A stretch of DNA of 23,746 nucleotides from a virus: positions 1-23,746 of IMG/VR virus record IMGVR_UViG_3300037557_000349. One strand, given 5' to 3'. The position numbers and the translations under genes were made by a program. Positions 3,493 to 22,365 of this stretch are shown here, piece by piece. Position 1 is the stretch's first letter. Each line of letters begins with the position of its first letter. The notes beneath the pieces were generated by a model that worked only from the letters and a program-made list of their open reading frames with translations, ran no database searches and was not told where the DNA came from.

Positions 3493-4510
3493 AGGTCTAC
3501 ACGATGCGAGTACACCTCAAATAACAGATTCTATTATAAAAGAAATAGCCGAATATGATGCTGAACATATTGGAGGAGGGGTAGTTCGTTTTTCTGGTGT
3601 TTCGTTTATCCCTGATTACATCTTCCCTTGGATTCAGCAAGCGGCACAAGAAGCCCACGAACAGCGTTGGACGTATGAAACAGATGAAAACGGGGTTACT
3701 TATGCTTTGAATGAGGATTTAAACAAGTTTGACTTAGAACAAGTAAAACTAGTTCCAACAAGAGTTCTAGATCCTGTTACAGAATCCACTCCATCAGAAA
3801 TCACAGAAACATTGAATTACTGGGAAGACATGATCTATAAGTGTCTTATTAGATATGTTGACTTTTTTCCAATGGTTTTAGGAACATTATGGTGGAGAAA
3901 TAGAGGACATATTCTTCGTTATAAAGAAGGAAATTTTCTAGGCACTCATAACGACAATGACGCGAACTACCGTTCCACTAACGGAACAAAATATGTTCCT
4001 CAAGTTCAATCCGCTTCTCGTCAAACTCTTGCTGTTTTACTTTATTTGAATGATGGTGTTCAACATCCAGACAAATTAGACGGCACTAATTACACAGGCG
4101 GAGAAATGAATTTTCCCTACTTGGATATCAACTATCAAGGTAAAACTGGAGACATAATCATTTTTCCATGCAACTTTTTAGCAACTCATGGAGTAAACAC
4201 CGTAACGGCTGGAGACAGATACACATATCTAGAGTTCTTTTCACAAGGAAGCCCACAACCAGAAGTAGGGGTTAATGTAGTAGAGCCAGATGCAATCGAC
4301 TCGTGGTGTCCCCCGCATTGGTTAAACAACATCTACGATGATTACGCCAAGTACGCTAAACATAGTGAAATAGGAGCGAACAAAAACGTAACGGATAGAA
4401 CTAATCCTGTTTTTCAAAATCGAACGCTAGAAGGCAAAGAAGGACTATCAAAAGGATATGACCACGGAGATGTCGTAGATATTAACTATCAACGAAATCT
4501 GTCTACATGA
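3485..4510 (+). CDS. 2OG-Fe(II) oxygenase, prolyl-4-hydroxylase-like (A2)
   Basis: The longest paralogue (341 residues). Ligands are H155 and D157 in LGTHNDND, distal H235 in THGV and R245 in GDRYTY. The GGEMNFPYLDI strand is preceded by a loop containing DGTNYT, which occurs again in the minus-strand oxygenase at 6548-7375 but not in the other paralogues. The N-terminal GGGVVRFSGV matches the family opening motif. A C-terminal extension of about 95 residues after the catalytic core (VVEPDAIDSWCPPHWLNNIY onwards) resembles the tail of the preceding paralogue and may bind substrate or partner. It overlaps the upstream gene by 8 bases and the downstream one by ATGA. Confidence 0.9.
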   Translation: MSKGLHDASTPQITDSIIKEIAEYDAEHIGGGVVRFSGVSFIPDYIFPWIQQAAQEAHEQRWTYETDENGVTYALNEDLNKFDLEQVKLVPTRVLDPVTESTPSEITETLNYWEDMIYKCLIRYVDFFPMVLGTLWWRNRGHILRYKEGNFLGTHNDNDANYRSTNGTKYVPQVQSASRQTLAVLLYLNDGVQHPDKLDGTNYTGGEMNFPYLDINYQGKTGDIIIFPCNFLATHGVNTVTAGDRYTYLEFFSQGSPQPEVGVNVVEPDAIDSWCPPHWLNNIYDDYAKYAKHSEIGANKNVTDRTNPVFQNRTLEGKEGLSKGYDHGDVVDINYQRNLST

Positions 4511-5307
4511 AGCATTTAGATGGCGGAGTCGTTTTATTTGAAAAAATAATCGACATTCCAGATCACATAATCCCCGAACTATCCGAAATGGTCGATATAG
4601 CGTTTAATACTATGTATGACTTCGTTTACGATGAAAACGGAGAACTCCAATATGGAATCAACCTGAGTGGTCACACTATTTACAAAGACGACTTACACAG
4701 CGACCCAATAAGAATTACTGGACCCGGTATTATTATTAATCCTGAATTCTTTAGTAATTGCGATAAAGCGATTTATCAAAAATTGCTCAAATATTTTTCT
4801 CTATTTCCCGATGCTTTTCCTTGCGTCTGGTGGGAAGTAGGAGGACATGTCGCTTACTATCCCACTGGATCTAAATATGGATCTCACTGCGACAATGATG
4901 TCAATTATGTTTATGGTGACGTTCCAGTAGATCAATCTGCGTTAAATCAAACAATCTCATGCAGTCTTGTCCTCAATAACGATTTTGAAGGTGGAACCAT
5001 GGCATTCACATATTTAGATCTTGATGTCAAGTTGAATGCTGGAGACTTGTTGATGTTTCCTTCTAACTTTGTTGCTACTCATGAAGTGAAAGAAGTAACT
5101 GAAGGCTCAAGATATTCTTATCTTGCTAATTTTGCTCAAGGTTCTTCTGCCCCTGACCGTAATGTCGTTGTCCAAGACACTCGTGAATCAGGCGCTCAAG
5201 GTAAATCTTGGCTTCCTGATATAGCAAAAGATTTCAAAGAATTATTAGAAAAAGAAGGAAAACTTATTCCTCCTGTTTTAACTCGTCTTCCTGACCATGG
5301 GCGCTAA
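4507..5307 (+). CDS. 2OG-Fe(II) oxygenase, prolyl-4-hydroxylase-like (A3)
   Basis: A 266-residue paralogue beginning directly with the family opening motif (MKHLDGGVVLFEKIIDI). Ligands are H127 and D129 (GSHCDND), distal H192 (ATHEV) and R202 (GSRYSY). The core strand reads GGTMAFTYLDL, with Thr replacing the usual Glu after GG. The start overlaps the previous stop as ATGA, so translation is coupled. The last 44 bases overlap the end of a convergent oxygenase gene on the other strand, so this operon has no room for its own terminator before opposing coding sequence. Confidence 0.9.
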   Translation: MKHLDGGVVLFEKIIDIPDHIIPELSEMVDIAFNTMYDFVYDENGELQYGINLSGHTIYKDDLHSDPIRITGPGIIINPEFFSNCDKAIYQKLLKYFSLFPDAFPCVWWEVGGHVAYYPTGSKYGSHCDNDVNYVYGDVPVDQSALNQTISCSLVLNNDFEGGTMAFTYLDLDVKLNAGDLLMFPSNFVATHEVKEVTEGSRYSYLANFAQGSSAPDRNVVVQDTRESGAQGKSWLPDIAKDFKELLEKEGKLIPPVLTRLPDHGR

Positions 5308-5992
5308 GTAGATTCGGAAACCATTCAGCGGCATTATTCGCCGCCTTTGGAGTTCCCTGCCCATAGAACTGCAAATAAGAATACCTCTCCCCAAACAAAA
5401 CAGGAGCCACAGCATGTGACCCTATGTAATTAGAGGGGTACAAAATAGCAGTTCCTTTAGGAGGTCTGACGCTCAACCCTGCATGAGCAAACTCTAATTG
5501 CCCTCCTGAAAATCCTTCATTCAATGCTATGGAAGCAGTTATTACATTGTGAATGGCATGTTCATTCTCAGGGTTAACACCCGGTGTGTACTCAATTCCG
5601 TTGTCGTGATGTGTGCCCATGTGCTGTCCCTCAATGTAAGTAGCAACATGACCGGGGGATCGCCACCAAACAGACGGAGCGACTTCTGGAAAGATTTGAA
5701 TATACCGTTGAATACATTCAAAAAGAGCATCATCCAATGCTTCGACAAATGCCCTATCTTCTTCCGTTACATCCCGTGGTAATAGATTTAGGAACCGACC
5801 CGGTGCTCCTAGATACTCCTCTGGAGTGAACTTGTAACCACCACGATTTATGTAATTTCCTTCTTCATCAATAGTGTAATCATCTGGTTCATTCGCACGA
5901 CGGCGTTCCAACCAACCAGAAAAAAAGTCGTCATCTATTTCTATGGCATTATCGAATTTAACAATCCCATTAGCAAATTTATGTTCTTTCAT
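5264..5992 (-). CDS. 2OG-Fe(II) oxygenase, prolyl-4-hydroxylase-like (B1)
   Basis: The open frame extends to an ATG at 6040, but the start at 5992 is preferred: it begins MKEHKFANGIVKFDNAIEID, exactly where the paralogues begin, and overlaps the upstream gene by only 14 bases. From there it has 242 residues with H118 and D120 (GTHHDNG), GGQLEFAHAGL, distal H183 (GSHAV) and R193 (GERYSY), so the active site is complete. It ends inside the 3' end of the convergent plus-strand oxygenase. It is the last gene of the long minus-strand series and immediately follows the dehydrogenase-like gene. Confidence 0.88.
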   Translation of the reverse strand: MKEHKFANGIVKFDNAIEIDDDFFSGWLERRRANEPDDYTIDEEGNYINRGGYKFTPEEYLGAPGRFLNLLPRDVTEEDRAFVEALDDALFECIQRYIQIFPEVAPSVWWRSPGHVATYIEGQHMGTHHDNGIEYTPGVNPENEHAIHNVITASIALNEGFSGGQLEFAHAGLSVRPPKGTAILYPSNYIGSHAVAPVLFGERYSYLQFYGQGTPKAANNAAEWFPNLLSAHGQEDELKQEE

Positions 5993-6551
5993 CCGCCTCA
6001 TTGTCCATTCTTTGCTGTCTAAACATTTTGGCAGGTTCATCTAAAACAATCCCATCAAAGGGTGTTTCTTCAAAAAGGTCTGCAACAATTTTTGCATCTT
6101 TTCCAAACAAATAAAACGAACGCTCGTTCGTATAGTTATCTGGACCGGGTATCGGATATCCATAAATTGCGGCATCCACATAACTAAACGATCCCGCATT
6201 AGATACTGCTAATAATTCTGATTGAAATATCCCTTTAGAGTTTGCGGCTTGTATATGTTTTCCAATATCTCCACTCTCAACAAAATTAGCGTCTACAAAG
6301 ATCCCTTCATAATTGGCAGAAGTTGCAGTGTGAAGATTTGGGATCACTCCACCCTGCCAGCAAATAGAAAAAACAATATCGACTTCACCTAAAAGTTCTT
6401 CAACAGTGTCCTTTTCAATAAAAGACTCTGCCCGTTCTCTAGTTGCTTCTGATCTTTCTTCTGAAGCCCAAAAAATATCATGTCCTTGTTCTTGTAAAAC
6501 CTTACCGATACTAGAACCCATCGCTCCGGGATGAAGAATTCCTATTTTCAT
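5979..6551 (-). CDS. NAD(P)-binding dehydrogenase domain, truncated (6PGDH/DUF1932 type)
   Basis: A 190-residue Rossmann protein. It starts MKIGILHPGAMGSSIGKVLQ, a GxxGxxG-type dinucleotide loop, and continues with GHDIFWASEERSEATRERAE, VDIVFSICWQG and FVDANFVESGDIGKHI. This is the pattern of the N-terminal domain of the 3-hydroxyisobutyrate/6-phosphogluconate dehydrogenase superfamily, closest to members with a C-terminal DUF1932 domain. Those proteins are usually near 280-300 residues; here the protein stops soon after a degenerate AKM motif, so the helical C-terminal domain that completes the active site is absent. It may dimerise, act with a partner, or only bind NAD(P). The start overlaps the upstream oxygenase stop as ATGA. 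Confidence 0.8.
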   Translation of the reverse strand: MKIGILHPGAMGSSIGKVLQEQGHDIFWASEERSEATRERAESFIEKDTVEELLGEVDIVFSICWQGGVIPNLHTATSANYEGIFVDANFVESGDIGKHIQAANSKGIFQSELLAVSNAGSFSYVDAAIYGYPIPGPDNYTNERSFYLFGKDAKIVADLFEETPFDGIVLDEPAKMFRQQRMDNEADERT

Positions 6552-7375
6552 AACTTATAACCTTCCGTCATATAGATATTTGTTGCTGATTTCGCCGCCT
6601 CTGGATCATCAGTCGGATCTAAAACTGCTTCATTAAACTCTTTGTTTGGACTTCCGTGGCAATACCACCCCACATGGGAGTACCTAGCCCCACCTTTAAC
6701 CATGCTCACTCCATGAGAAGCAATGTAATTAGACGGAAAGAAAAGAATGTCTCCTTTCTTGGGCGCATATTCAATATCTAAATATCCAAACTTGACTAAC
6801 CCGCCCGTGTAATTGGTGCCGTCTAACTCTTCTTCTGTTTCTACGTGATCGTTGAAAAAGGCAATAGTTGAAACTGTGGTTCGTGTTGCTATTTGATCTG
6901 TTGGATGAGGAGAACCGTATTCATAATCCACACTTTGATCAGAATGCATTCCCAGATAAGCACCCTCTGGATAAACCAAAATGTGACTTTTTATCTTCCA
7001 CCAAATACATTTGCCCGCTAATGGAAATAGATTTAAATAATCCAAAAGACAATTATCTGTTGTGTTTTGCAAAAGTTCCAAGATTTTGTAAATATCAGAA
7101 GGTGTTTCTCGGTGGATGAAAGCACAATGTTGTGGCATTTTGTAAACAGAATCGGATGGAAAAAAGTATCCGTTCCTATTTATGAAGCCTTCTTCACCAG
7201 AAATCGGATCTTTTCCGGGCGTGTACATGACTTTGCGTTCTTTTTCCACTGATTCCTCAGCGAAACAGGCTAAAGCACCCCAATCGGTCTCTACGGCGCT
7301 CTCATAAAGAACCACGCCACCCCCTAAATGCTTGCCTTTTGCCTCACGAGGTTGCCATGCCGTTCCTTCGGTCAT
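6548..7375 (-). CDS. 2OG-Fe(II) oxygenase, prolyl-4-hydroxylase-like (B2)
   Basis: The open frame reaches an ATG at 7423, but the ATG at 7375 forms an ATGA overlap with the upstream stop, as elsewhere in this operon, so that start is chosen (275 residues). The family opening motif GGGVVLYESAV follows at residue 18. Ligands are H144 and D146 (GMHSDQS), distal H221 (SHGV) and R231 (GARYSH). The core strand is GGLVKFGYLDI. The preceding loop ELDGTNYT is shared with the plus-strand oxygenase at 3485-4510, marking these two as closer relatives. The downstream gene is the truncated dehydrogenase, coupled by ATGA. Confidence 0.88.
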   Translation of the reverse strand: MTEGTAWQPREAKGKHLGGGVVLYESAVETDWGALACFAEESVEKERKVMYTPGKDPISGEEGFINRNGYFFPSDSVYKMPQHCAFIHRETPSDIYKILELLQNTTDNCLLDYLNLFPLAGKCIWWKIKSHILVYPEGAYLGMHSDQSVDYEYGSPHPTDQIATRTTVSTIAFFNDHVETEEELDGTNYTGGLVKFGYLDIEYAPKKGDILFFPSNYIASHGVSMVKGGARYSHVGWYCHGSPNKEFNEAVLDPTDDPEAAKSATNIYMTEGYKL

Positions 7376-8244
7376 TCGTCGTCCACCGCTGGCCAATAGA
7401 CAGGTGCTTGCTGATGTCCCCATGCTGGATATTTGTCATGCATTTCTTCATCAGTCCACCCAGAAGACTCTATGAAATCCCTCTCAATATGTTTTTGCCA
7501 CAAAAAATTGGCTTCTGGAGATTCATCAGGATCGAATATAAGAAGTCTTTCAACTTCATCTTCTACAGGAGTGTTAAGAGGCTCTGTTGAACCTTGTCCA
7601 AACCACCCCAGATAAGAAAGCCTTCGAGATCCTTCTTCGACAGTACGAACCTCATGTGCCCCCAAATAGTTAGCAGGAAATATCAACAAGTCCCCACGCT
7701 CAACAGGAAAATTCAATCCTGCGTATGGAAAATGCATATCCCCACCTTTACAACTATCCACATGCAACGTGGTAGTCAACACGTTTCGACTTGACACTTC
7801 GTTCCGTCCTACAACTTCATTCCTAGTATTCCAAGAATACCCAACATTATTATCTTGATGTAGTTGCAACCCTGCTCCCGGTTCGTAAACCAAAGCGTGA
7901 CCTTTATCTCTCCACCATAAAGAATGAATAAGAACCGGATATTCTTCTAAATATTTTAAAACATGCTTATAAATTTGCTGTTCAGTTTTATTCCAAAAAT
8001 CAACAGCACCTTCTGCTCTTTCAAAATTTTGTGGCGGATAGTGAGGATGAACAATAATTGGCCATTCATTTACAGTGTTTATTGGGTAAACAACACCACT
8101 GTCACGATGAGTTACATGAGTATCGGTAAAGTCATAAATAAGATTCTGCGTATAGTCACGCATAGCAACAAGTTCGTCAATGATAAAATCAGGAACCTCA
8201 ATGGCGTTACGCTCTATCGCAATCCCGTTAGAGAAATGTTCCAC
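7372..8244 (-). CDS. 2OG-Fe(II) oxygenase, prolyl-4-hydroxylase-like (B3)
   Basis: 290 residues, starting with GTG at 8244 that overlaps the TAG stop of the upstream gene by one base (TAGTG). The sequence begins with the family motif (HFSNGIAIERNAIEV). Ligands are H129 and D131 (LQLHQDNN), distal H197 (GAHEV) and R207 or R208 (GSRRLSY, one residue longer than in relatives). GGDMHFPYAGL is the core strand. A C-terminal extension of about 70 residues (EDEVERLLIFDPDESPEANF onwards) parallels those of B2 and A2. Substrate unknown. Confidence 0.88.
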   Translation of the reverse strand: MEHFSNGIAIERNAIEVPDFIIDELVAMRDYTQNLIYDFTDTHVTHRDSGVVYPINTVNEWPIIVHPHYPPQNFERAEGAVDFWNKTEQQIYKHVLKYLEEYPVLIHSLWWRDKGHALVYEPGAGLQLHQDNNVGYSWNTRNEVVGRNEVSSRNVLTTTLHVDSCKGGDMHFPYAGLNFPVERGDLLIFPANYLGAHEVRTVEEGSRRLSYLGWFGQGSTEPLNTPVEDEVERLLIFDPDESPEANFLWQKHIERDFIESSGWTDEEMHDKYPAWGHQQAPVYWPAVDDE

Positions 8245-9227
8245 TATTTACCTTCTTTATAATTTCCTGTATCAACATGTTTTTGTAACCTATTAGTAAT
8301 TACTAAAAGAAATGCTAGTCGATCTTCGTTGTTCAAGTGCCCCAGACTAGCCCAAACAACATCCATACAGTGTTGAAGCAATAAATCGGTAGGAGGAGGA
8401 TCTTCATCTGAGTATCTGTCCACCTCATTAATACCTAGTCCTTTCCAATCAAAAGGTCTGCTTTTAGGCATCAAAGATGAAGGAACAGGACCAATATCTG
8501 GATAATGCCATTCATGTCCAACATGTTTAGGACGACGCGGTTGTTTTAAAACAAAATCAACAGCCTCGCGAACTGTCCACTTTCCCCCAACATAAATAGA
8601 TTTATCCATAAGAGGTTCTTGGGCATAATTAAACCGTGTTTCTACTTGACCATCACGATCAAAAAGAAACTTCTCAAACAATCCATGTATTTCCTGTGAA
8701 GCACCACCTGTTACATGAAAAGGTTCAGCATGTTCCCAAATGCCTTGCTCGTTTTTAATCAACGGACCATAATCATCAACAGCCCGAATTTCATAACCTT
8801 TTAAATACAAAGCCAAAGAATGTTCAGGCTTATAGTCATCCCCCACTCCTTCAGGATTAATATTCATTTTTTCCGTAAAAGGAAAAGTGACATAAGGGTA
8901 TTCAGACTTTAAGAACTCTAAAATCTCCTCATTCTCACAAGGTTCCTGCTCACCCAACTGATTAGTCGGAATCGCTATAACAGAAAATCCTCTATCAAAA
9001 AACTCTTCGTGGAGCACCTGAAGATCCTCAAACTTCTTGTGCGTTCTCTCCAAAGACATAATCTGATCAGTTTTTGCTTTATACCCACATTTTGTTGCAA
9101 CGGGTAAAAACATTGTGACTTTTCCCTTGAAAGCCTCCAACATGTTTTCTTGACCATCTAATGAGCGAACTGGAATGTCATAAATCCCATTGACTTCTTT
9201 GTTTTTTATATGAGAATCCATGGTCAT
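8244..9227 (-). CDS. Glutathione-peroxidase-like thioredoxin-fold protein with extra C-terminal region (1)
   Basis: 327 residues, against about 160-200 for ordinary glutathione peroxidases. Residues 15-195 follow the family: GIYDIPVRSLDG, KGKVTMFLPVATKCGYKAKT with the peroxidatic Cys at C47, then FSVIAIPTNQLGEQEP (N89, Q90) and IHGLFEKFLFDRDG. In typical enzymes the last motif is WNFxKFLVDR; here Gly and Leu stand where the catalytic Trp and Asn should be. An insertion of about 40-50 residues precedes it, and a unique region of about 120 residues follows (PRRPKHVGHEWHYPDIGPVP). Family members reduce peroxides with thiols, but the missing residues leave activity uncertain. The start overlaps the TauD-like gene as ATGA. 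Confidence 0.8.
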   Translation of the reverse strand: MTMDSHIKNKEVNGIYDIPVRSLDGQENMLEAFKGKVTMFLPVATKCGYKAKTDQIMSLERTHKKFEDLQVLHEEFFDRGFSVIAIPTNQLGEQEPCENEEILEFLKSEYPYVTFPFTEKMNINPEGVGDDYKPEHSLALYLKGYEIRAVDDYGPLIKNEQGIWEHAEPFHVTGGASQEIHGLFEKFLFDRDGQVETRFNYAQEPLMDKSIYVGGKWTVREAVDFVLKQPRRPKHVGHEWHYPDIGPVPSSLMPKSRPFDWKGLGINEVDRYSDEDPPPTDLLLQHCMDVVWASLGHLNNEDRLAFLLVITNRLQKHVDTGNYKEGK

Positions 9228-10024
9228 GCTAAATATTCTGGTTTAGCCAGTTGTCCCTCTAATTTGTCAAAAATTCTTTCTCCATGTTGCCAGCCCCCTA
9301 AAAAACCATGAACCATAGAGGAATTGTCCCAAACCAGCAAGTCACCCTCAGACCATTCCCATTGAATTTGATTTTCTGGCTCATAAAGAACGCCATCAAC
9401 TTGTGTGCCGTTTAGCCAAGTTTTATATTCATTAAATAATTCTGTTTCCCCATCCACAGGATCACATTCCGGTCCAGTATAAAAAAGAGACGTTGCTCCC
9501 GTTACGGAATGAGTTCGTAAAGCAGGATGAACAGCACCTTCAGCCAGTTCCCCAGTCTCAGGATCATTTGCCCCAGAACGATGAAGAACCATCAAGTCCT
9601 TTAAATATTCCCGTAAATGAGAAGGACATTTTTCGTACAACTTCTGACAGTCCACCAAGACTGTGTTTCCTTTACCTTTTTCGCCTGTCCATGTATGCAT
9701 ATGCATACTTGTAATAGTTGGAGATTCTTCCCAGACAGTATTATCGGCGTGCCAATGCCCCACCAAGAAATCATCTGGCATGTCAGGTAAAACCTTCTCT
9801 AGGTGTGGATGAGTTATATCCCAAATTCCATTAGCGTCACGACTTCCTTCGCCCCTCATTAAAGAAACCAAGACTTCTTTATGCTGTCGTCTGTTCGGAC
9901 GTAATTCAACAAAACCTAAAACTTTATTTTGGGCTAAAAGATCTGCGTAATAATCACTATTATCCAAGATTTCTTTAACAGTTACATTTTGTAAATGAAC
10001 CCATGAATCGCATGTGACCAACAT
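9224..10024 (-). CDS. TauD/TfdA-family 2OG-Fe(II) dioxygenase
   Basis: 266 residues. This oxygenase belongs to a different branch from its neighbours. GHWHADNTVWEESP carries H92 and D94 in the TauD-type HxD context, VLVDCQKLYEKCP matches the strand and helix that follow it in TauD, HPALRTHSVTGATSLFY is the family's substrate/2OG segment, and WDNSSMVHG (H239) with GER (R250) completes the triad and 2OG-binding Arg. Known members hydroxylate taurine, 2,4-D, carnitine precursors or free and carrier-bound amino acids, so the substrate cannot be predicted. It is coupled to both flanking genes (TAATG upstream, ATGA downstream). Confidence 0.88.
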   Translation of the reverse strand: MLVTCDSWVHLQNVTVKEILDNSDYYADLLAQNKVLGFVELRPNRRQHKEVLVSLMRGEGSRDANGIWDITHPHLEKVLPDMPDDFLVGHWHADNTVWEESPTITSMHMHTWTGEKGKGNTVLVDCQKLYEKCPSHLREYLKDLMVLHRSGANDPETGELAEGAVHPALRTHSVTGATSLFYTGPECDPVDGETELFNEYKTWLNGTQVDGVLYEPENQIQWEWSEGDLLVWDNSSMVHGFLGGWQHGERIFDKLEGQLAKPEYLA

Positions 10025-10743
10025 TATGGCTTGTCCAGTTCAGGATGTCCTTCGTGCTTTGGTCCGATTCGTTCATCTTTCTCATTCAATCCTGTACGGA
10101 TACTCCCCATCCAAGTCCACGGGTTTTCGGTATTGTTTTTAAACTTGAAATCACCATACTCTTGGCGTTCCTTCATCAAATCTGGTTTATCCCACAGATG
10201 CTCCACTTCAAATTCAACATTTGAAAGCAAATCGTCTTGATACACCTGAAAGAACATAAAAGGCATACCTTCTGGAAAGACAACAGGTTCCCCTACCTTT
10301 GTTATCTTCCAGTTCATGTTCCATTCATCCGGCCACCAAGAAGTAGGAATCGTCGCCGTTAAAGGAACTGCCCCATCTACAAAGTAATTAGGTGAACCTG
10401 AGATCCATGTGCTGTATCCCTCAGGAGTTTCCATAGACCAACCAGTAGCAAAAGACATGATTCCGATAATGCTTGGAATCACCACTGCTCTCTCATACTC
10501 CTGCCCATCAACCGTATGAGTGATCGTTTCCCCTGAAAGAACACGTGGGACAGCATTTCCGCCATCCCACTGAACAACAACTTCTTGTTGAAGCACCATT
10601 TCCCATCCACATACATTTGCCGCTGTTAAAGGTAAGCATTTGTATGCATGTTTGTTATAAGTGTCATCCATCCAACCTCGTTTACGACGCGACTGTTGAA
10701 TTTCTGGTGGGTTTTGATGATTCTTTCTTAAAACTACTTTCAT
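10024..10743 (-). CDS. DUF6065-like protein
   Basis: 239 residues. The pattern RGWMDDTYNKHAYKCLPLTAANVCGWEM, then VVVQWDGGN, FATGWSMETPEGYSTWISGS, VDGAVPLTATIPTSWWPDE, WNMNWKITKVGEPVVFPEGMPF is what I recall for DUF6065, a family of unknown biochemical function. It is beta-rich, with many Trp residues and no membrane segment. Its core is echoed in the gene at 20166-20918, next to the halogenase, so both gene groups carry a protein of this kind. It starts as an ATGA overlap with the upstream oxygenase stop and ends as TAATG with the TauD-like gene. Confidence 0.72.
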   Translation of the reverse strand: MKVVLRKNHQNPPEIQQSRRKRGWMDDTYNKHAYKCLPLTAANVCGWEMVLQQEVVVQWDGGNAVPRVLSGETITHTVDGQEYERAVVIPSIIGIMSFATGWSMETPEGYSTWISGSPNYFVDGAVPLTATIPTSWWPDEWNMNWKITKVGEPVVFPEGMPFMFFQVYQDDLLSNVEFEVEHLWDKPDLMKERQEYGDFKFKNNTENPWTWMGSIRTGLNEKDERIGPKHEGHPELDKP

Positions 10744-11444
10744 GAAGAAGCCGATTGTATCTGTCCGCCATATTGCTCAACCACCTGCTCTGCTATTACT
10801 CGCCTGTTTTGCTCAGGCGAATGATCTTGATGGTTTCGGTCATTGTAGTCATACATCGTTACCGCAGAATATTTCATTCCCTCTGTTACAGGCAACGATT
10901 GATGTGCATACACAAACGTGGACGGATGAACAATCACGTCCCCCTGTTCAGGAGTGAATTTAATATCCTGATAAGGAAGGACGTACTCTCCTCCTTCGTA
11001 ACCATCATTCAAATATCCGATTGCTGAGACAGTGGCACTATAAGAAAAACCATGATCAGCATGAACATTGAAATGTTGCCCAACGTCATATTTGACGAAG
11101 TTTGTCGCTTCCTCGTATTCCATTGCAATGTTGTACAAATTGCAATAGTGATTGACGCATTCTCTTACACCTAGAATAACTTCTTTGTAAATTTCGCCTG
11201 CTTCTTCAAAAGCAGGATCACAAATAGGAATATCGCTTTGGCGAAGTTTGAAGTCCCAACAATCTCTATATTCGGGCATCTTTTCTCGATCCCCAACAAG
11301 CGACTCTTTCCATGAGAAGTACTCGTGAGCACTATCTCCAATGCAATCCTCTAAACGCTCTATAAAGTTAGCGTCCTTATTCCATACATTCTTATATAGA
11401 ACTATTCCCGAATGTTCGTTTCCGACATATCCTGCGATATCCAT
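10740..11444 (-). CDS. 2OG-Fe(II) oxygenase, compact P4H-like with Lys at the 2OG site (B4)
   Basis: 234 residues. It lacks the NGIVLF opening of the longer paralogues and belongs to a separate subgroup. Ligands are H128 and D130 (FNVHADHGF) and distal H181 (YAHQSLPV). The usual Arg that binds 2-oxoglutarate is replaced by Lys (K191, EGMKYS), as it is in eukaryotic prolyl 4-hydroxylases. GGEYVLPYQDI and GDVIVHPSTF are the core strands. A strong ribosome site (AGGAG, 6 bases before ATG) suggests efficient independent initiation, unlike the coupled genes downstream. Confidence 0.88.
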   Translation of the reverse strand: MDIAGYVGNEHSGIVLYKNVWNKDANFIERLEDCIGDSAHEYFSWKESLVGDREKMPEYRDCWDFKLRQSDIPICDPAFEEAGEIYKEVILGVRECVNHYCNLYNIAMEYEEATNFVKYDVGQHFNVHADHGFSYSATVSAIGYLNDGYEGGEYVLPYQDIKFTPEQGDVIVHPSTFVYAHQSLPVTEGMKYSAVTMYDYNDRNHQDHSPEQNRRVIAEQVVEQYGGQIQSASS

Positions 11445-11452
11445 ATTTACTC

Positions 11453-12073
11453 CTAAAGGCTAGTTATTGTATAAAAAGAAGGTGTAGTCCATCGTGTTCC
11501 AGAAATCATTTGTTTAACTCCATGCAAATAATGCACATCACCGGGATGTGCTACTGCCAATCCGGGTTCTATTTCTAATTCTATTCCGTGTTCTGGATAA
11601 TAAAACTGACCACCTTCAAAATCTCCATTCCAATAGATAATAGAATTAATATCGTAGGTAGGAAAGGGATTAGGCGTTCCATCGTTTAATTGTTTATCGG
11701 CATGAGGCTGTTGTTCATTTCCTTCAAGCCAACGAATCAAAACAGGTGGACGCTGAGAAACACTTACAGAAAACTTGTCTTCAATCGCGTTTTGCATTTT
11801 TACAATGTATTTATTGATCAACTGATGTATTTCTGGTGCTGTCCGTTCAAGTATCTGACCACTACACATCCTGTCCCACCAGTAAGAAGCATCATAGATG
11901 CATTCTCCCTCCTCGTTATATTCTGTTTCACGAGGGTTTTCCCATTCGGTAATAGTAGGAAAGAACTCTTGAAGTGTTTTTAAATCATTTTCTTCAACAA
12001 AATTATGCATAATCATAATGTTGTCTTTAGAAGAACCGAAATAACCCGGTGTTATAAGTGACTTCTCTTCCAC
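11453..12073 (-). CDS. 2OG-Fe(II) oxygenase, compact P4H-like (B5)
   Basis: 206 residues from a GTG start at 12073; an in-frame stop four codons upstream makes this the earliest possible start, and an internal ATG (MIMHNF) remains possible because the ribosome site is weak. Ligands are H124 and D126 (QQPHADKQLND), distal H184 (YLHGV) and R194 (GTRWTT). The core strands are GGQFYYPEHGI and GLAVAHPGD. It represents a third sequence type in the array, distinct from both the NGIVLF group and the Lys-type pair. It lies between the second peroxidase-like gene and B4, with short gaps on both sides. Confidence 0.85.
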   Translation of the reverse strand: MEEKSLITPGYFGSSKDNIMIMHNFVEENDLKTLQEFFPTITEWENPRETEYNEEGECIYDASYWWDRMCSGQILERTAPEIHQLINKYIVKMQNAIEDKFSVSVSQRPPVLIRWLEGNEQQPHADKQLNDGTPNPFPTYDINSIIYWNGDFEGGQFYYPEHGIELEIEPGLAVAHPGDVHYLHGVKQMISGTRWTTPSFYTITSL

Positions 12074-12085
12074 ATTGTTAGGTTA

Positions 12086-12910
12086 TCACTCAGATAGAAA
12101 CCGATCAATGTCTTCACAAATCGAGTCCAGAGAGTAATCTACCCCTGCACGTTGCATGGGAGTTGGCCAAGGACCATCGTTATTGGCAGAGTCATCGTCC
12201 CACCATGAAAAAACTTCTCCACTTTTATCTCTTTGCCCAAGAAGAAAACTACTGGTATACCTAAAAAATCGTTTACCAGTTCTATCAATCAAAAATTTTT
12301 CAAAGTTTCCTTTGATTGGTGAAAATCCGGGTTTGGAACGATCTTCTTTTTGTTCTATTGCCGCCCATGGACTTTCTTCATAATGATGAGGAAGGTTCAG
12401 TTCATTTCGAGGTAGCGCATCTGCTCCAGTGATATGAAGCCAAAATGGATGAGGTTCTTGTTCGTATTGTGTTCCCGGAATCCAATTAGGGTCATAATCA
12501 TGTTTATCGAAGCGCCCATTTGTTAATTCAGAAAATTGATATTCGACACCATAGTGTTCACGCACATAGGATTCTGCTATTTGACCCGGAGTCAAATTTA
12601 AATTTTTGCGTTCCCCATAAGCCTCTAAACCATCATTGAATTCTTCATACCCGTGACATGTGAAATCATCTACCACAATTGCCTGAAGATTGAAGTCTGG
12701 TTCATTTCTATATAGTTCATCCAATTCTTTTAAAACAGAATGTTGAGGAACATTTCCACATCCAGCCGCACAATTGAAAACAAGAGTTACTTTTCCTTGG
12801 TATTTACTCAAAATGTCTGAATCTGCACCATCAGGAGACGCAATTTTGAAATCATAAAGTGATTTACTTTTTGTTTCTATAATGTCCGGTTTTTCTAATG
12901 TTGTCTTCAT
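12086..12910 (-). CDS. Glutathione-peroxidase-like thioredoxin-fold protein (2)
   Basis: 274 residues, again longer than the usual family. SLYDFKIASPDG and YQGKVTLVFNCAAGCGNVPQ align with the peroxidase start; C51 is the expected peroxidatic Cys, with a second Cys at C47 spaced CxxxC. The motif that normally reads FPCNQFGxQEP is degraded (VDDFTCHGYEEF), so the catalytic Gln is not evident, and WNF is GNF (G201, N202) in GNFEKFLIDRTGKRFFRY. A large insertion of about 100 residues (QIAESYVREHYGVEYQFSEL onwards) lies between. It shares the extended architecture with the protein at 8244-9227 but is clearly diverged. Good ribosome site (AGGA). Confidence 0.75.
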   Translation of the reverse strand: MKTTLEKPDIIETKSKSLYDFKIASPDGADSDILSKYQGKVTLVFNCAAGCGNVPQHSVLKELDELYRNEPDFNLQAIVVDDFTCHGYEEFNDGLEAYGERKNLNLTPGQIAESYVREHYGVEYQFSELTNGRFDKHDYDPNWIPGTQYEQEPHPFWLHITGADALPRNELNLPHHYEESPWAAIEQKEDRSKPGFSPIKGNFEKFLIDRTGKRFFRYTSSFLLGQRDKSGEVFSWWDDDSANNDGPWPTPMQRAGVDYSLDSICEDIDRFLSE

Positions 12911-12915
12911 TTTTC

Positions 12916-13371
12916 CTACTTAAAAGACGGTGGGAAATATGGAGGGAAGAACGGTGGAAAGAACGGTGGGAAAAATGGTGGGAAGAATGGAGGAAAGTGG
13001 GGTGGGAAATGTGGTGGGAAGAACGGAGGGAAGAATGGAGGGAAGAATGGAGGAAAGAATGGAGGGAAGAACGGTGGGAAATAAGGAGGAAAATAAGGAG
13101 GGAAGTAAGGACTGTAATATGTGTAATCAATTGCAGTAACCAACGGCATTTCTGTTCCTGCCGTTTGAACCTGACTTTTAACCTTATTTAAATTACCACT
13201 ACCAATAGAACCACCAGAGTCATCAATATTCTCTGCCGTAGCAGTACCCACTACGAAACCAGAAGTGGTTATCGTATTGTCAGACTCTCCTCCACTTGTT
13301 CCCTTTGTCTGCCCGACAATATTAGGAATAGTGTCTTTTCTCGGTCCGGTTCTACCTTCTGCTTCAGCCAT
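12916..13371 (-). CDS. PASTA-like protein with (Y/F/H)FPP-repeat tail
   Basis: 151 residues in two parts. Residues 14-85 resemble one PASTA domain (TIPNIVGQTKGT, then SGFVVGTAT, then SQVQTAGTEMPLVTAIDY), a small fold that binds peptidoglycan or serves as an adhesive module. Residues 89-148 are fifteen perfect four-residue units of the form aromatic/His-Phe-Pro-Pro, ending SFK. The tail is uncharged apart from that end and could form an extended polyproline-type rod. The gene sits between the tail-fibre gene (5 bases after its stop) and the oxygenase series, so it is probably a virion tail protein. The regular Pro and aromatic content makes it a candidate substrate for the neighbouring hydroxylases and the halogenase (inference). 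Confidence 0.8.
   Translation of the reverse strand: MAEAEGRTGPRKDTIPNIVGQTKGTSGGESDNTITTSGFVVGTATAENIDDSGGSIGSGNLNKVKSQVQTAGTEMPLVTAIDYTYYSPYFPPYFPPYFPPFFPPFFPPFFPPFFPPFFPPHFPPHFPPFFPPFFPPFFPPFFPPYFPPSFK
12928..13107 (-). repeat. 15 x 12-bp tandem repeat encoding xFPP units
   Basis: Fifteen in-register 12-bp units. The plus strand is strongly purine-rich (variants of GGGAAGAACGGT) and the coding strand pyrimidine-rich. Units differ mainly at third positions and in the first residue (Tyr, Phe or His). A block of this type can change copy number by slippage, and its strand asymmetry could favour unusual DNA structure. Confidence 0.9.
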
Positions 13372-13376
13372 TATCC

Positions 13377-16300
13377 TTACGCCTCAAGGTCTCCAACGAG
13401 TATCCACTCATCTGTAGCGATCTTAATACAAGTCACAGATGAATACTGTGCTCGTAACTTCAAACCGGGTGTAGAACGTAAAGTCACACCAGAACCAGCA
13501 ACCATGGTTACTTCACCAGCACCAAGACCAGCAACCTGAACTTGAGTTCCTACAGCGTATGCAACACTGCTGTTAGGCGGAACTGTAATGCTCTGTGCTG
13601 AACCATTGTTCGTTGTAACCAACTTTCCTCGGTCCGCCAATACCAATGTATAGGCGGTTCCGGTCTGGGTATTCAACGCTACGTTGTACATAACATTGCC
13701 TGTAACGTCAAGTCCTGTACTATCAATCACCGCTGTTTCGGTTCCACCAACATCAAATCGGATCTTGTCCTCATCTGAGGATTCCTCAACCTGAATTTTG
13801 GTGTCGTTATCAGCATCTTTGATTGAGTCACTGCTAAGAGCACCTAACTCTGTCTGAACATAAGCAGTAGTAGCAATCTGAGTGGTATTCGTATCTGCGG
13901 CGGCAGTTGGAGCCGCTGGAGTACCTGTAAGAGTTGGAGAAGCCAAAGTAGCGTAATCGCCTAACTCTGTCATCACGAATGCCGTAGTTGCGATCTGAGT
14001 CGTATTCGTATCCGCAGAAGCGGTAGGTGCGGCAGGAGTACCAGTCAAAGTTGGAGAAGCCAAAGGTGCGTAATCACCAATTTCAGTCATTACGAACGCT
14101 GTAGTCGCAACCTTTGTCGTACTGTCATCAGCCGACTGGGTAGTAGCAGTTGTTCCGTCAAGAAGTGCCGCCGCATTACCAGTTGTTATAACCGTACCTG
14201 TTGCATCAGGAAGAGTAATTGTTCTATCTGCGGTTGGATCAGTAATAGCCAGCGTGGTTTCAAAATCATCTGCTGTTGCACCTTCAAAGATGAAGGGACT
14301 AGCACCTGCGATTGTTCCACTAAATGTGGCAATACCTGAAACTGTTAAAGCAGTTAGTGTTCCAACACTTGTTAGTGAGGATGCGACCACTGCTCCACCT
14401 AGTGTGGTGGCATTTAGAACTGAAGCACCTGCGACATAGAGGGCTTTTCCAGAAGCGAGATCAATATGTTCAGAAGATGTCCAAGCATCTGTCGAATTGA
14501 CCCAGTTCCACGTTTTATCTGTTGCACCCTTTAGAGTGAGTCCGCCACCATCTGCGGTGGTATCGTCAGGGGAAGCAACCGAACCTATTTCGATGTTCTT
14601 ATCATCAACTGTGATCGTTGTAGAACTAATTTCAGTTGTAGTTCCATTAACTGTAAGATCGCCAGTAATGGTTACAGTACCTGTAGCACCAATCGTCATA
14701 CGCTCTGTACCAGCAGTATCAAAACGAATAATGTCTTCGTCTGCACCTTCTTCTACCTGAATCAGAGTGTCACCATCAGCATCAGTCAAAGAGTCACTAC
14801 TCAAAGCACCTAGACCAGTATCGACATAAGCCGTAGTTGCTAGTTTCGTTGAGTTGTCACCAGCCGACTTTGTGGTTGCCGTGGTTCCATCAAGAAGTGC
14901 CGCTATGTTTCCTGTGGTTATTACCGTACCCGTTGCATCAGGAAATGAAATTGTTCTATCCGCCGTGGGGTCGATAACCGTAAGAGTGGTCTCAAAGTCA
15001 TCCGCCGTTGCACCCTCCATAACAATGGATGCACCAGAGACATTTATCAATGGAGTGGTAAGAGAAGTCGTAACAGTTACATCGGCAGGTAAACCAACCG
15101 TTACTCCTGCGGTTTCTGAACCTGAACCGCTTACATCCACCTCGTTAGCGGTTCCCGCTACCGTGGCAACATAATTACCCGTAGTATCTGTACCTAGAGC
15201 AACCGAATCAGCGGCAACTGTTGCTGTAAGAGTTGCACTAGCCAAATCTGTGATTGTTACGTTACCTGTAAGGTCACCGCCCAATGTGATTGTGAAATCT
15301 GCGACATTAAGATCAATCGCCCCATCACCGCCATCATCGTAAGTAGCGGCAATACCTGAATGTGAACCATTTGTAACTAACTGTCCTCCAACGATGTCTT
15401 GAACATTTTCTGTTACTAGAGCCAAGTCAATAGCACCGTCTCCAGCATCATCATAAGTAGCCGTGATGCCTGTATGAGAACCATTAGTTGCTAACTGAGC
15501 ACCTGTAATGTCTTCGACATTCTCAGTGACAAGAGCCAAATCGACAGCCCCATCACCAGCGTCATCATAAGTAGCCGTGATCCCCGTGTGGGAACCATTG
15601 GTCGCAAACTGTGCGCCCGTAATATCTTCGACGTTTTCAGTTATGAGCGCTAAATCAACAGCACCATCGCCTGCATCGTCATAAGTTGCCGTAATGCCAG
15701 TGTGAGAACCGTTAGTGGCTACTTGAGCACCTGTTATATCCTGAACATTTTCTGTAACGAGAGCAAGATCCACCGCTCCATCACCGGCATCGTCATACGT
15801 TGCGGTAATGCCGGTGTGGGAGCCATTGGTAGCGATTTGTGCGCCTGTAATGTCCTGAACATTTTCAGTTACAAGGGCTAAATCGACAGCACCGTCTCCG
15901 GCATCGTCATAAGTCGCTGTGATCCCCGTGTGAGAACCGTTCGTTGCCAACTGAGCGCCAGCAACATCCTGAGTGGCTTCCGCAAAATCTGTAACAGCAG
16001 TGGAAGGAATAGCAATAGTTGTATTAGAAGCGGCAGTCAAACGACCATAAGCATCGACCGTATATCCGGGAACTGCTGTAGCACTTCCATAAGAAGCGGC
16101 TGTAACAGCCGTAGTCGCTAAATCAATATCGTCAGCATTCGTAACAATTCGAGCACTACTCGCTGTTCCAACATTGATTGTATTCCCAGTGATGCTTGCA
16201 CCAGTACCAGCAGTTATTGCTTGTGTACCAGTGAATTGCGTAAACGCGATGTCGTTAGTTCCCACGGCATGAGGATCACTTGTCGATGTGACTATGAAAC

Positions 16301-16955
16301 CTTGTCCACCATTCGTGGAACCAGCGAGTGCATATGATGACTCACCGGCTTTGATCTGTCCTGCTGGACTTCCATCGAAGTCTTCGGCTCTTGTAAGAAC
16401 CCATGCGGCTGATCCGTCTACACCTTGTGTAGTTACATCGTAAATACCGTTTTGTAATGCGCTTGCCTGATCTTGTACGAGTACACGATCTCCTGCGGTT
16501 GCGTTTGCTCCGTCCACGACAAGTCGTGCATTAGCACCAGCGGTAAGAGTCGCACCGACACCTGAACTACCGTTACTGTAGGTAGGAGAGTTAGGTAGAA
16601 CAGCGGCAGTGGCTAGTTTTACTGCTTCATGCCAATTTGTAATACTTTCGTTACTGACCCACTTGACACCACTAGATGCGCTGGAGTCAGCAGTTAATAC
16701 TTGTCCGTTGGAACCGACTGCAACTCGTGCGATTGTGTTGTCTGCTGTACCAAGGATCAAGTCACCCTTAGCGTCAATAAAGGTTGTACCGAGTACACCT
16801 ATACCGTAACTGAGACTTGTCCAAACAGTACTGCCGTCACCGATCTTATACTGACCAGTATCCGATTCTATTCCGAGTTCACCAGCCGCTAAGGTCGGGT
16901 TATTGGAAGTCCAGTTGGATGCTGTATCCCTTCTAAATTGAATTATTGATGCCAT
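13377..16955 (-). CDS. Large tail fibre / receptor-binding protein with Mtd-like N-terminus
   Basis: 1192 residues. The start MASIIQFRRDTASNWTSNNP through IGDGSTVWTSL (residues 1-48) matches the N-terminal attachment domain of major tropism determinant-like fibre proteins. A domain GDRVLVQDQASALQNGIYDV...LTRAEDFDG follows and also occurs in the fibre at 17441-18991. Six 38-residue repeats come next, then two copies of an EGATADDFETTL...PDATGTVITTG module, two 39-residue ASPTLTGTPAAPTA phage-fibre repeats, and a C-terminal domain (GKLVTTNNGSAQSITVPPNS to ILVGDLEA). The modular make-up indicates a trimeric distal fibre. A good ribosome site (AGGTAGGAAAG) lies before the ATG. No C-type lectin domain or variable repeat is seen. 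Confidence 0.85.
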   Translation of the reverse strand: MASIIQFRRDTASNWTSNNPTLAAGELGIESDTGQYKIGDGSTVWTSLSYGIGVLGTTFIDAKGDLILGTADNTIARVAVGSNGQVLTADSSASSGVKWVSNESITNWHEAVKLATAAVLPNSPTYSNGSSGVGATLTAGANARLVVDGANATAGDRVLVQDQASALQNGIYDVTTQGVDGSAAWVLTRAEDFDGSPAGQIKAGESSYALAGSTNGGQGFIVTSTSDPHAVGTNDIAFTQFTGTQAITAGTGASITGNTINVGTASSARIVTNADDIDLATTAVTAASYGSATAVPGYTVDAYGRLTAASNTTIAIPSTAVTDFAEATQDVAGAQLATNGSHTGITATYDDAGDGAVDLALVTENVQDITGAQIATNGSHTGITATYDDAGDGAVDLALVTENVQDITGAQVATNGSHTGITATYDDAGDGAVDLALITENVEDITGAQFATNGSHTGITATYDDAGDGAVDLALVTENVEDITGAQLATNGSHTGITATYDDAGDGAIDLALVTENVQDIVGGQLVTNGSHSGIAATYDDGGDGAIDLNVADFTITLGGDLTGNVTITDLASATLTATVAADSVALGTDTTGNYVATVAGTANEVDVSGSGSETAGVTVGLPADVTVTTSLTTPLINVSGASIVMEGATADDFETTLTVIDPTADRTISFPDATGTVITTGNIAALLDGTTATTKSAGDNSTKLATTAYVDTGLGALSSDSLTDADGDTLIQVEEGADEDIIRFDTAGTERMTIGATGTVTITGDLTVNGTTTEISSTTITVDDKNIEIGSVASPDDTTADGGGLTLKGATDKTWNWVNSTDAWTSSEHIDLASGKALYVAGASVLNATTLGGAVVASSLTSVGTLTALTVSGIATFSGTIAGASPFIFEGATADDFETTLAITDPTADRTITLPDATGTVITTGNAAALLDGTTATTQSADDSTTKVATTAFVMTEIGDYAPLASPTLTGTPAAPTASADTNTTQIATTAFVMTELGDYATLASPTLTGTPAAPTAAADTNTTQIATTAYVQTELGALSSDSIKDADNDTKIQVEESSDEDKIRFDVGGTETAVIDSTGLDVTGNVMYNVALNTQTGTAYTLVLADRGKLVTTNNGSAQSITVPPNSSVAYAVGTQVQVAGLGAGEVTMVAGSGVTLRSTPGLKLRAQYSSVTCIKIATDEWILVGDLEA
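13854..14087 (-). repeat. Two 117-bp phage-fibre repeats (TLTGTPAAPTA)
   Basis: Two adjacent 39-residue units of the form TE(I/L)GDYA(P/T)LASPTLTG followed by TPAAPTA, ADTNTTQIATTAF/YV. This motif is common in tailed-phage fibres. The two copies are nearly identical in protein but differ at many synonymous DNA positions. Confidence 0.85.
15306..15989 (-). repeat. Six 114-bp repeats in the tail fibre
   Basis: Six consecutive units of 38 residues containing ATNGSHTGITATYDDAGDGA. Units 1-5 (from the N-terminal side) are almost identical in protein apart from one variable residue (AQLAT, AQIAT, AQVAT, AQFAT, AQLAT); the sixth is degenerate (GQLVTNGSHSGIAATYDDGG). The DNA differs at many third codon positions, so protein sequence is conserved far more than DNA. 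Confidence 0.9.
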
Positions 16956-20165: not shown

Positions 20166-20918
20166 TCAAGAATCAGCGTCAGCCTTGCGTTGATGTTTCC
20201 TGTAAAGACCTTTTCTTGAAAACACGTTGACATTTCCGTGTGACACACCTTGACCTCGCATTTTCAAGGCGGCTTCATGAGTACCAAGTGTCATAGTCTT
20301 GATGTTGTCTTTTCTTTTAAATGGAATTAGTTGAAATAACGGCGTTCCTGCTTTAACAACAAATTCTTTATCGGTATTGATTTGCAAAACTGCATTAACT
20401 GCATGGTAATAGTCCGTGTGAACAACCCCCGGCAAAGCGTGGTATCTCGGATCTGCGTTGTAAAGAGTTGGTATTAAAAGCGAAGAATAACCTTTTGCAG
20501 TTTTCACATACCAAGGGTTGACTAATTTCGGCCAATTCGCTTCAGAAGCAGGTCGTGCTTTTGCAATCGGACACCCAACCGTGTTGGAATAAGGGAAACT
20601 TTCTGCCCAAAACCTTTTATCACTTGCATTAGCAATGAAACTCTGCTTTGAAGATTCCCAAACGAATTCGTAGTCACACCATAAGTGAAAAGTAATACCC
20701 GTGCTTAAAAGATCTTGTATTCCTTTACAACTCGCTATTGTTCCGGGTTCTGCTATCCGAGGATCTTTAAACCAATCTGGCCAAGTTGTTTCATTAACAA
20801 CAGGAGGAAATTCCAAACAATCATCTATTAGAGGAGCAACAAAGATTTCTCCGGGTTCGACTTTTGGCAAGTCACTATATATTCTGATTTTGTCAGAGTT
20901 CTTTAATCTTTTTAGCAT
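20166..20918 (-). CDS. DUF6065-related protein next to the halogenase
   Basis: The frame is open from an ATG at 20927, but the ATG three codons later (20918) is preceded by GAGG and gives less overlap with the halogenase, so it is preferred (250 residues). The product includes STGITFHLWCDYEFVWE, WYVKTAKGYSSLLIPTLYN, ALPGVVHTDYYHAVNAVLQI and VVKAGTPLFQLIPFKRKDN. This order (GYS, a Pro-rich loop, G-x-V-x-T-D, a strand, then AGTPLFQLIPF) parallels the DUF6065-like protein at 10024-10743 (EGYSTW, VDGAVPLTATIPTSW, NWKI, EGMPFMFFQV). A Lys/Arg-rich C-terminus (FSRKGLYRKHQRKADADS) is specific to this one. Function unknown. Confidence 0.65.
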   Translation of the reverse strand: MLKRLKNSDKIRIYSDLPKVEPGEIFVAPLIDDCLEFPPVVNETTWPDWFKDPRIAEPGTIASCKGIQDLLSTGITFHLWCDYEFVWESSKQSFIANASDKRFWAESFPYSNTVGCPIAKARPASEANWPKLVNPWYVKTAKGYSSLLIPTLYNADPRYHALPGVVHTDYYHAVNAVLQINTDKEFVVKAGTPLFQLIPFKRKDNIKTMTLGTHEAALKMRGQGVSHGNVNVFSRKGLYRKHQRKADADS

Positions 20919-22365
20919 GATCCTCATAAGCGGTAGATAACATCTGTTCTCTCATTCTATACAATACATCTTTCACTGCTTTAGATAAGCCAAAAGACTC
21001 TAAGGCTCTCATCGCAAGATCTGGATTCAACAACCCTTGCCCTTGTGCAACTACATAAAAATTAGGAGCATGAAACATGTGCATATCCCTATTACCCATT
21101 TTCACATCTGACGGGTCAGGTAGTCTTTCTTGCCATAATCCCAACATTCTTTCCACGTTGTCTGTAAGAGGAGCCACTTTTTGTGCTTTCCAAAATTCAG
21201 TATCCTCACGATCACTCACATAATGCAATCTGATCATGTCAAGAATATTAATCATTAAAGATTCAAAATCTCCGTTGTATTGCCGTCGAGAATTTTCATT
21301 CTCAGGTTGGTAAGTTGCTAAATAAGGCAGTAATCCGTTTGTTTGACAAATCGTGGTTCCTATGGAAGTCGCCTCTAATGGTTCTACAAAAGAACCTGCA
21401 AGACCCATGGCTACACAGTTCCCAACCCAACCACTTTCTAAATGTCCGGGATCGAATTTGAAATGTTTGTAATCCGATATTTGGATGTCCAATAGTTCTT
21501 CCATTTCAGAAACTGCTTCTTCTTCAGAACAGAATTGCGAAGAATAAACATAACCGTTACCTCTTTGAGTCTGCGTGGGAATTTCCCAAGCCCACCCAGA
21601 ACTCAAGGCTCTCGCACGGGTATACGGACGTATTTTCCCACTTTCATCTGATGAGGTACGAAAAGCAATAGCAGAATCTGTTAAAAGATACTCACTGTAT
21701 GAACACCAATTATTTTCAGAAAGATTAGACATCAGAACACGACTAAAACCTGAAGCATCAATCCAGAAATCACCGTGTATCAGAGAACCGTCTTTCAATT
21801 CAACACTTCCTATAGTGTCATTCTTTGCATTAACTTTTTCTACATGCCCATTAAGAACCTCAATATTTCTTTGTTTTGCTTTAACCGTGAAATAATCATT
21901 TAATTCATAAGTGTCAAAGTGGTATTGATTTACTGATCTAAATGATCCTTCTGCCCTAATTTCATCTGAGAAGAGCCTCTCTTTTGTAGTAAGTCCTTCA
22001 CATATCGGAACTTCTCTTTGGAGATATTCTGCGTATTCTGATTGAAAACCAAAAACATTACTCCTCACATCTGGAGATGCTGTAAGTCCAACAATTGCAT
22101 GGAAATAATCAGGGAACTGGTTGCCCCAATCTTCAAATCTGATGCCTTTTTTTAGAGTCCCTAAAGACGCTGGCAATATTTCGGCTCGTTCCAATTTGCA
22201 AAAGTCCAAAAAAAGTGCAAGATGTTCTTGGCTTCCTTCACCTACTCCTATAACTGGAACTTCTTCTGAACCGATAATTGTTATCGGACAATTAGGAAAA
22301 GCCTGTCTGAGTATTAAAGCAGAAATAAATCCAGCGTTACCACGCCCTACAACGACAATACGCAT
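20893..22365 (-). CDS. Flavin-dependent tryptophan halogenase family protein
   Basis: 490 residues, slightly shorter than PrnA/RebH-type enzymes (about 510-540). FAD is bound through VVGRGNAGFISA (residues 5-16). IGVGEGSQEHLALFLDF corresponds to the family's GVGE-T-P segment. TLKKGIRFEDW (69-80) carries the lysine (K72) that forms the chloramine or guides HOCl. DASGFSR (203-209) is the second FAD motif, GWAWEIP (257-263) contains the diagnostic WxWxIP that excludes monooxygenase activity, and FVEPLEATSI (326-335) holds the active-site Glu. All hallmark residues are present, so halogenation is likely; the substrate could be tryptophan or another aromatic. A flavin-dependent halogenase, VirX1, has been described from a cyanophage. 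No flavin reductase is visible here. It starts right after the upstream stop (TAAATG). Confidence 0.9.
   Translation of the reverse strand: MRIVVVGRGNAGFISALILRQAFPNCPITIIGSEEVPVIGVGEGSQEHLALFLDFCKLERAEILPASLGTLKKGIRFEDWGNQFPDYFHAIVGLTASPDVRSNVFGFQSEYAEYLQREVPICEGLTTKERLFSDEIRAEGSFRSVNQYHFDTYELNDYFTVKAKQRNIEVLNGHVEKVNAKNDTIGSVELKDGSLIHGDFWIDASGFSRVLMSNLSENNWCSYSEYLLTDSAIAFRTSSDESGKIRPYTRARALSSGWAWEIPTQTQRGNGYVYSSQFCSEEEAVSEMEELLDIQISDYKHFKFDPGHLESGWVGNCVAMGLAGSFVEPLEATSIGTTICQTNGLLPYLATYQPENENSRRQYNGDFESLMINILDMIRLHYVSDREDTEFWKAQKVAPLTDNVERMLGLWQERLPDPSDVKMGNRDMHMFHAPNFYVVAQGQGLLNPDLAMRALESFGLSKAVKDVLYRMREQMLSTAYEDHAKKIKEL

Follow-up and report, generated by a model that had tools for sequence, protein, structure and literature searches.

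The window analysed here is a whole virus record of 23,746 bases. On its minus strand, genes follow one another in the order tail fibre, FPP-repeat protein, glutathione-peroxidase-like (GSHPx-like) protein, two core 2OG-Fe(II) oxygenases, DUF6065 protein, TauD-type oxygenase and a second GSHPx-like gene. The tail fibre gene (13377..16955) encodes an Mtd_N domain (PF18454, E 1e-14) and matches PHROGs tail fibre families. The FPP gene (12916..13371) starts 5 nt beyond the stop codon of the tail fibre gene, and the GSHPx-like gene (12086..12910; thioredoxin fold; PF00255 at E 1.2e-5, under the family cut-off) begins 5 nt downstream of it. The core oxygenases are a putative prolyl hydroxylase of the clade we call og11453 (11453..12073), recognised by its orthologue profile and an HxD..H..R pattern, and a putative prolyl 4-hydroxylase of the clade og10740 (10740..11444), recognised by its orthologue profile and PF13640 (E 6.6e-10). 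They are followed by the DUF6065 gene (10024..10743; PF19541, E 7.5e-42) and by the TauD-type 2OG oxygenase (9224..10024; PF02668, E 6.8e-22), an optional member. A first-pass annotation of this DNA had placed the FPP gene directly between the tail fibre gene and the oxygenases; the position and shared strand hold, and the direct contact does not, since the GSHPx-like gene (read from 12910 to 12086) intervenes.

Other 2OG oxygenases with PF13640 matches, optional in FPP phages, are encoded on the plus strand (2554-3492, 3485-4510 and 4507-5307) and the minus strand (5264-6040, 6548-7423 and 7372-8244). A further 2OG pair (22366-23624) adjoins a tryptophan halogenase (20893-22365; PF04820, 2e-92), and 2OG genes besides the core pair are thus found at both window ends. 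Beside the halogenase lies a gene for a 253-amino acid protein with no Pfam match (20166-20927).

The FPP gene is an ATG-initiated frame of 151 codons that encodes a short leader, a PASTA domain, 15 xFPP units and an SFK terminus. Its [FYH]-F-P-P tract (12928..13107, minus strand; residues 89-148) runs uninterrupted up to the SFK-stop, confirming the initial reading of 15 units after a PASTA-like module, and the x position of the 15 units reads YYYFFFFFHHFFFFY. The unit, [FYHW]-F-P-P across the family, contains no glycine, and the Gly-X-Y repeat of collagen-like phage tail proteins is absent; PHROGs holds no family for the FPP protein.

The PASTA assignment (13111..13338, minus strand; about residues 12-87) draws on relatives and on structure prediction. 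The window protein alone, which has a small insertion, gave no Pfam match, while PF03793 was matched by 23 of 28 aligned relatives (best E 7.8e-10) and a profile of the family hits PknB PASTA chains (3e-5). In an AlphaFold2 model built from the family alignment, most of residues 11-87 reach a pLDDT of about 90, with two loops lower, and Foldseek ranks PknB PASTA domains first for this model (E 1e-3, probability 1.00); the best PDB matches of the modelled domain are the PASTA domains of PknB, StkP and PBP. The tract itself is modelled without secondary structure at a pLDDT of about 60. The N-terminal domain thus shares fold and family profile with PASTA domains such as those of PknB and PBP2x, which belong to cell-surface kinases and penicillin-binding proteins, whereas the phage protein has a single PASTA domain carrying the repeat as a presumed stalk.

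The tract is maintained at the protein level, because only synonymous changes separate the window tract from that of its closest relative, L360: all 18 changes in codons 89-151 (63 codons) are synonymous, and the x pattern is identical. In the 88 codons preceding the tract, the same pair differs by 10 replacements and 5 synonymous changes, with 5 codons containing ambiguous bases. Within the window tract wobble bases vary, while codon positions 1 and 2 of F, P and P are invariant in all 15 units. Across the family, the second residue is F in all 2301 units of 191 tracts – a count that permitted F, Y or W, on a set part of which came via a DNA pattern requiring F in four units – and in 810 of 823 units from 49 tracts reached via DUF6065 rather than via the repeat. 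The first position is occupied by F, Y, H or W in all but a few units, and synonymous sites differ freely. A comparison of 68 related tract pairs, which overlap and are non-independent, gave 298 synonymous and 0 non-synonymous changes at the second residue and 295 replacements at the first; it is no independent test of the prolines at positions 3 and 4, because the pattern forces proline there.

Plus-strand open reading frames across the tract resemble mirror images of the repeat. These frames and the low complexity of the tract are what would favour a DNA-level artefact, either a repeat misread as protein or a spurious frame, but we give this idea practically no credence given the absence of replacements against L360 and a tract that is intact in well over 100 distinct loci. 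An origin of the tract as a DNA microsatellite or by chance was likewise rejected on the codon analysis, with its synonymous-only change and invariant F-P-P. A phage contig binned as Verrucomicrobiales (L361:6892-7586) has its FPP tract split across two reading frames, possibly a real break or an assembly error in the repeat.

The first-pass annotation had proposed a genome survey of FPP-repeat genes against oxygenases, and such a survey revealed a strong link. The FPP loci came from a search with nothing but the DNA pattern, so the set is not conditioned on enzymes, and records of at least 30 kb were counted (31). PF13640 is present in 27 of these 31 records, most with 5-11 copies; some of the four records without it are fragments or carry another, internal type of FPP tract. 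By comparison, PF13640 was found in 2 of 16 FPP-less records that share the window tail-fibre N-terminus, with a single match each (the control search also contained four FPP-bearing records), and in 2 of 18 random viral records matched by an arbitrary 15-mer. One-sided Fisher tests, which ignore phage kinship, give about 8e-7 and 2e-7, respectively. Tail-fibre relatives of at least 8 kb behave similarly, with a 2OG gene in 7 of 9 FPP-positive versus 3 of 53 FPP-negative loci (kinship again ignored), and 44 random loci (356 kb) contained no FPP tract, 2OG or DUF6065 match. The association is also directional: among DNA-pattern loci, a 2OG gene lies within 5 kb downstream of the FPP gene in 53 of 62 and upstream in 1 of 39, and the first downstream 2OG belongs to the og11453 or og10740 class in 52 of the 53; kinship is ignored in these counts too.

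To define the gene content behind this link, we used 52 FPP loci with at least 6 kb of downstream sequence, fetched via the FPP protein or the DNA pattern, neither of which is conditioned on the enzymes. The og11453 and og10740 classes are each present in 44 of the 52 and DUF6065 in 42, and every other gene is present in about a third or fewer; a GSHPx-like protein (14 loci) is common rather than universal, and a TauD-type 2OG oxygenase occurs in 13. Viewed from the other end, all 45 distinct DUF6065 loci carry both core 2OG genes within 6 kb. The FPP gene is found in all 17 DUF6065 loci with at least 6 kb of upstream sequence, and the 12 without it all have less than 4 kb. FPP, og11453, og10740 and DUF6065 therefore form a cassette. 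Gene order and the strand of og11453 vary among groups, as do the proteins that carry the tract – PASTA, fn3, S74 chaperone and large fibre-like proteins – and the FPP-2OG-2OG-DUF6065 set persists.

Two loci (L028:2603-3289 and L032:377-1063, the same sequence) encode an S74 chaperone-of-endosialidase domain behind an FPP tract. In L028, the copy used for the domain search, the S74 domain (PF13884, 3.7e-11) comes with matches to tail-fibre and tail-spike PHROGs, and the fusion puts the tract within a tail fibre or spike that is presumably trimeric.

The cassette is specific to particular enzyme clades. Neither the FPP protein nor DUF6065 had a tblastn match in INPHARED; because low-complexity masking hides the tract from such a search, we ran the DNA pattern on eleven records of named phages, chiefly complete genomes – cyanophages, one methylophage and one pelagiphage, plus one single-cell-derived fragment – that have 1-13 PF13640 matches each. 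Neither the FPP pattern nor DUF6065 was found in these eleven, with two FPP phages serving as positive controls. In a tree of 135 2OG sequences, all 10 sampled from those phages and all 5 from FPP-less contigs fall outside both core clades, with moderate support (0.89 for og10740) and a small FPP-less sample. We therefore dropped a general association between FPP tracts and oxygenase arrays: the expected tie to the array stands for two 2OG clades and DUF6065, and fails for the series as a whole, since there are 2OG-rich phages without FPP.

The tryptophan halogenase, previously put forward as another possible modifier of the tract, is not supported as a partner. It lies within 9 kb downstream in 1 of the 52 FPP loci, and FPP is present in four, and absent from three, of the seven fetched loci that carry a homologue. 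The adjoining 2OG pair belongs to other clades, grouped with 2OGs of FPP-less contigs. The halogenase and the other nearby oxygenases fall outside our best explanation. In fn3-type FPP phages, homologues of the 253-amino acid protein beside the halogenase are found again close to the cassette (10 of the 52 FPP loci).

Both core enzymes have peptidyl prolyl hydroxylases as their nearest solved structures, which is suggestive of a prolyl-hydroxylase role. For the og10740 orthologue profile the best solved match is a bacterial prolyl 4-hydroxylase (3.6e-7; PDB 5hv0, 3itq), a cellular enzyme of Bacillus anthracis type, followed by the lysyl hydroxylase LH3; the likeness to the former is confined to the catalytic core, over about 85-90 residues. 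For og11453 it is prolyl 3-hydroxylase 1 (1.1e-8; PDB 8k0e), with about 70 residues aligned, followed by the bacterial prolyl 4-hydroxylase (1.8e-6). Prolyl 3-hydroxylase 1 is a multi-domain enzyme that acts on collagen. Catalytic residues are invariant among members of each class (H128, D130, H181 and K191 in og10740; H124, D126, H184 and R194 in og11453), including, in all sampled members, a basic residue ten positions past the HxD..H, which is K in og10740 and R in og11453. In this oxygenase family, that residue binds 2OG. The matches are not exclusive, in that the PKHD-type hydroxylase PiuC also scores against both core profiles and the window 2OG at 22366-22965 has the same prolyl 4-hydroxylase-like best match. 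The two adjacent prolines of each unit would make a neat, if conjectural, fit to one prolyl 4-hydroxylase-like and one prolyl 3-hydroxylase-like enzyme.

DUF6065 is the constant companion of the core 2OG pair in the phages studied. A sequence search for a solved relative found none (best E 0.15), and its model is a beta fold whose nearest neighbours are trimeric dUTPases; the likeness is weak (query TM 0.39), and we claim no function from it. In an alphaproteobacterial MAG (L363:9977-11551), DUF6065 is fused to a PF13640 (2OG-FeII_Oxy_3) domain in one open reading frame, which provides independent support for the partnership between DUF6065 and 2OG enzymes. That it acts as a helper or scaffold of the cassette is our guess. 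A bacterial DUF6065 is fused to an alpha/beta hydrolase (L365:9968-11647).

The presence, in many uncultured aquatic phages, of an FPP protein beside the tail-fibre gene and together with this cassette suggests that these phages may modify prolines of their own tail. On balance we favour the reading that the FPP protein is a tail-fibre-associated virion protein whose prolines are hydroxylated by the two core 2OG enzymes, with DUF6065 as a helper, and we consider it fairly probable. The small protein would display, on its PASTA domain, a stiff, extended stalk of aromatic-Phe-Pro-Pro units. Inside infected cells, the two core enzymes, one of a class resembling prolyl 4-hydroxylases (og10740) and the other of a class resembling prolyl 3-/4-hydroxylases (og11453), would hydroxylate both prolines of each unit, with DUF6065 as a dedicated helper. 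Hydroxylation could then fix polyproline-II geometry and turn an otherwise greasy stalk wettable, leaving a tip that is stiff, sticky or protease-resistant. We infer the virion location, the FPP protein as substrate, the proline chosen by each enzyme and the purpose of the modification. We read the FPP protein as the substrate because of the co-occurrence, the cassette, the downstream position of the enzymes, the changing carriers, the clade specificity, the nearest structures and the invariance of F-P-P. The earlier suggestion that the adjacent hydroxylases modify this protein accordingly narrows: strong linkage and proximity in sequence to peptidyl prolyl hydroxylases favour the two FPP-tracking enzymes as modifiers, and not the oxygenase series as a whole.

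Linkage between FPP and the enzymes could also mirror inheritance as one block. The FPP protein might then be an unmodified, hydrophobic, extended tail-tip adhesin, with the oxygenases and DUF6065 travelling as a single exchangeable block and modifying a different target: the neighbouring tail fibre, some other protein of the virion, a polymer on the host surface or a small molecule. The location of the cassette in a tail-fibre-adjacent region rich in optional genes would suit such a block, as would the match of PiuC to the core profiles, but the set stays together through changes of carrier, gene order and og11453 strand, and FPP-less tail-fibre relatives lack these enzymes; we regard this alternative as unlikely, though worth keeping in view. 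A more elaborate version of tract hydroxylation would make the stalk a collagen analogue, in which three FPP chains, trimerised by the fibre, form a polyproline-II stalk stabilised by hydroxyproline, with two different hydroxyls per Pro-Pro from the 3- and 4-hydroxylase-like enzymes and DUF6065 as chaperone or scaffold. We find this picture rather doubtful.

It is also conceivable that the tract is the substrate and that its aromatic residues are oxidised instead of its prolines, through Tyr or Phe hydroxylation to DOPA-like adhesive groups or through His hydroxylation. The neighbourhood contains several optional oxygenases and a halogenase, and x is nearly always one of F, Y, H and W, in the same pattern in the window and L360. 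Between other relatives, however, the x residue does change while the following F does not, and the closest relatives of the core enzymes with a known substrate act on prolines, which makes this chemistry distinctly improbable in our view. If proline hydroxylation of the tract is correct, a phage would be using protein hydroxylation to build its own tail, and DUF6065 would gain a context. 2OG oxygenases are abundant in marine and freshwater phages, and the cassette offers a concrete candidate substrate for one enzyme pair – one so simple and repetitive that the question is directly testable with a small peptide.

Known viral systems offer partial parallels. A Baltic Sea survey found viral prolyl 4-hydroxylase genes to be abundant and their use cryptic (PMC9301287), cyanophage proteins with prolyl 4-hydroxylase domains have been discussed as repair enzymes (PMC2984593), and marine phage 2OG proteins have been connected with AlkB-like repair or with the metabolism of nitrogen (PMC2984593, PMC5628999). 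As in FPP phages, PF13640-type 2OG proteins are numerous in marine phages such as the cyanomyoviruses S-PM2 and Syn9 (PMC2984593); none of the sampled 2OGs of this cyanomyovirus type groups with the FPP clades, and the phages they come from contain neither FPP nor DUF6065. The chlorovirus PBCV-1 encodes a sequence-specific prolyl 4-hydroxylase (Eriksson et al. 1999, cited in PMC7019647), and PMC7019647 reports that hydroxyproline was not detected in purified virions. By analogy, this would count against hydroxylation of FPP. PBCV-1 infects algae and, unlike FPP phages, is not described as having an FPP tract or DUF6065. Full-text searches of open-licence papers found no description of the cassette and no FPP repeat strings of the FFPPFFPP type.

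The FPP gene of the window reads straight through, with no frameshift, whereas in nearly all of 28 distinct freshwater-type members the PASTA domain is encoded in the +1 frame relative to the leader (M..RK..KPTV); two or three show a different offset upstream. Sites among these 28 include L019:6969, L021:1133, L036:4359, L038:2872 and 9980, L040:3032, L100:2730 and 11872 and about 20 more. The junction is strongly conserved, with a +1-frame stop (TAG or TAA) in 28 of 28 and a 0-frame CGG in 27 of 28, and CGG is used at 0.26 per 1000 codons in freshwater-type loci versus 2.57 in other FPP loci. These features make the freshwater-type FPP genes candidates for programmed +1 frameshifting inside the PASTA domain at a hungry arginine codon. 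As in yeast Ty1, a +1 glycine codon overlaps a slow arginine codon in the A site, and the GCN preceding the slow codon recalls Ty3 (PMC5009743).
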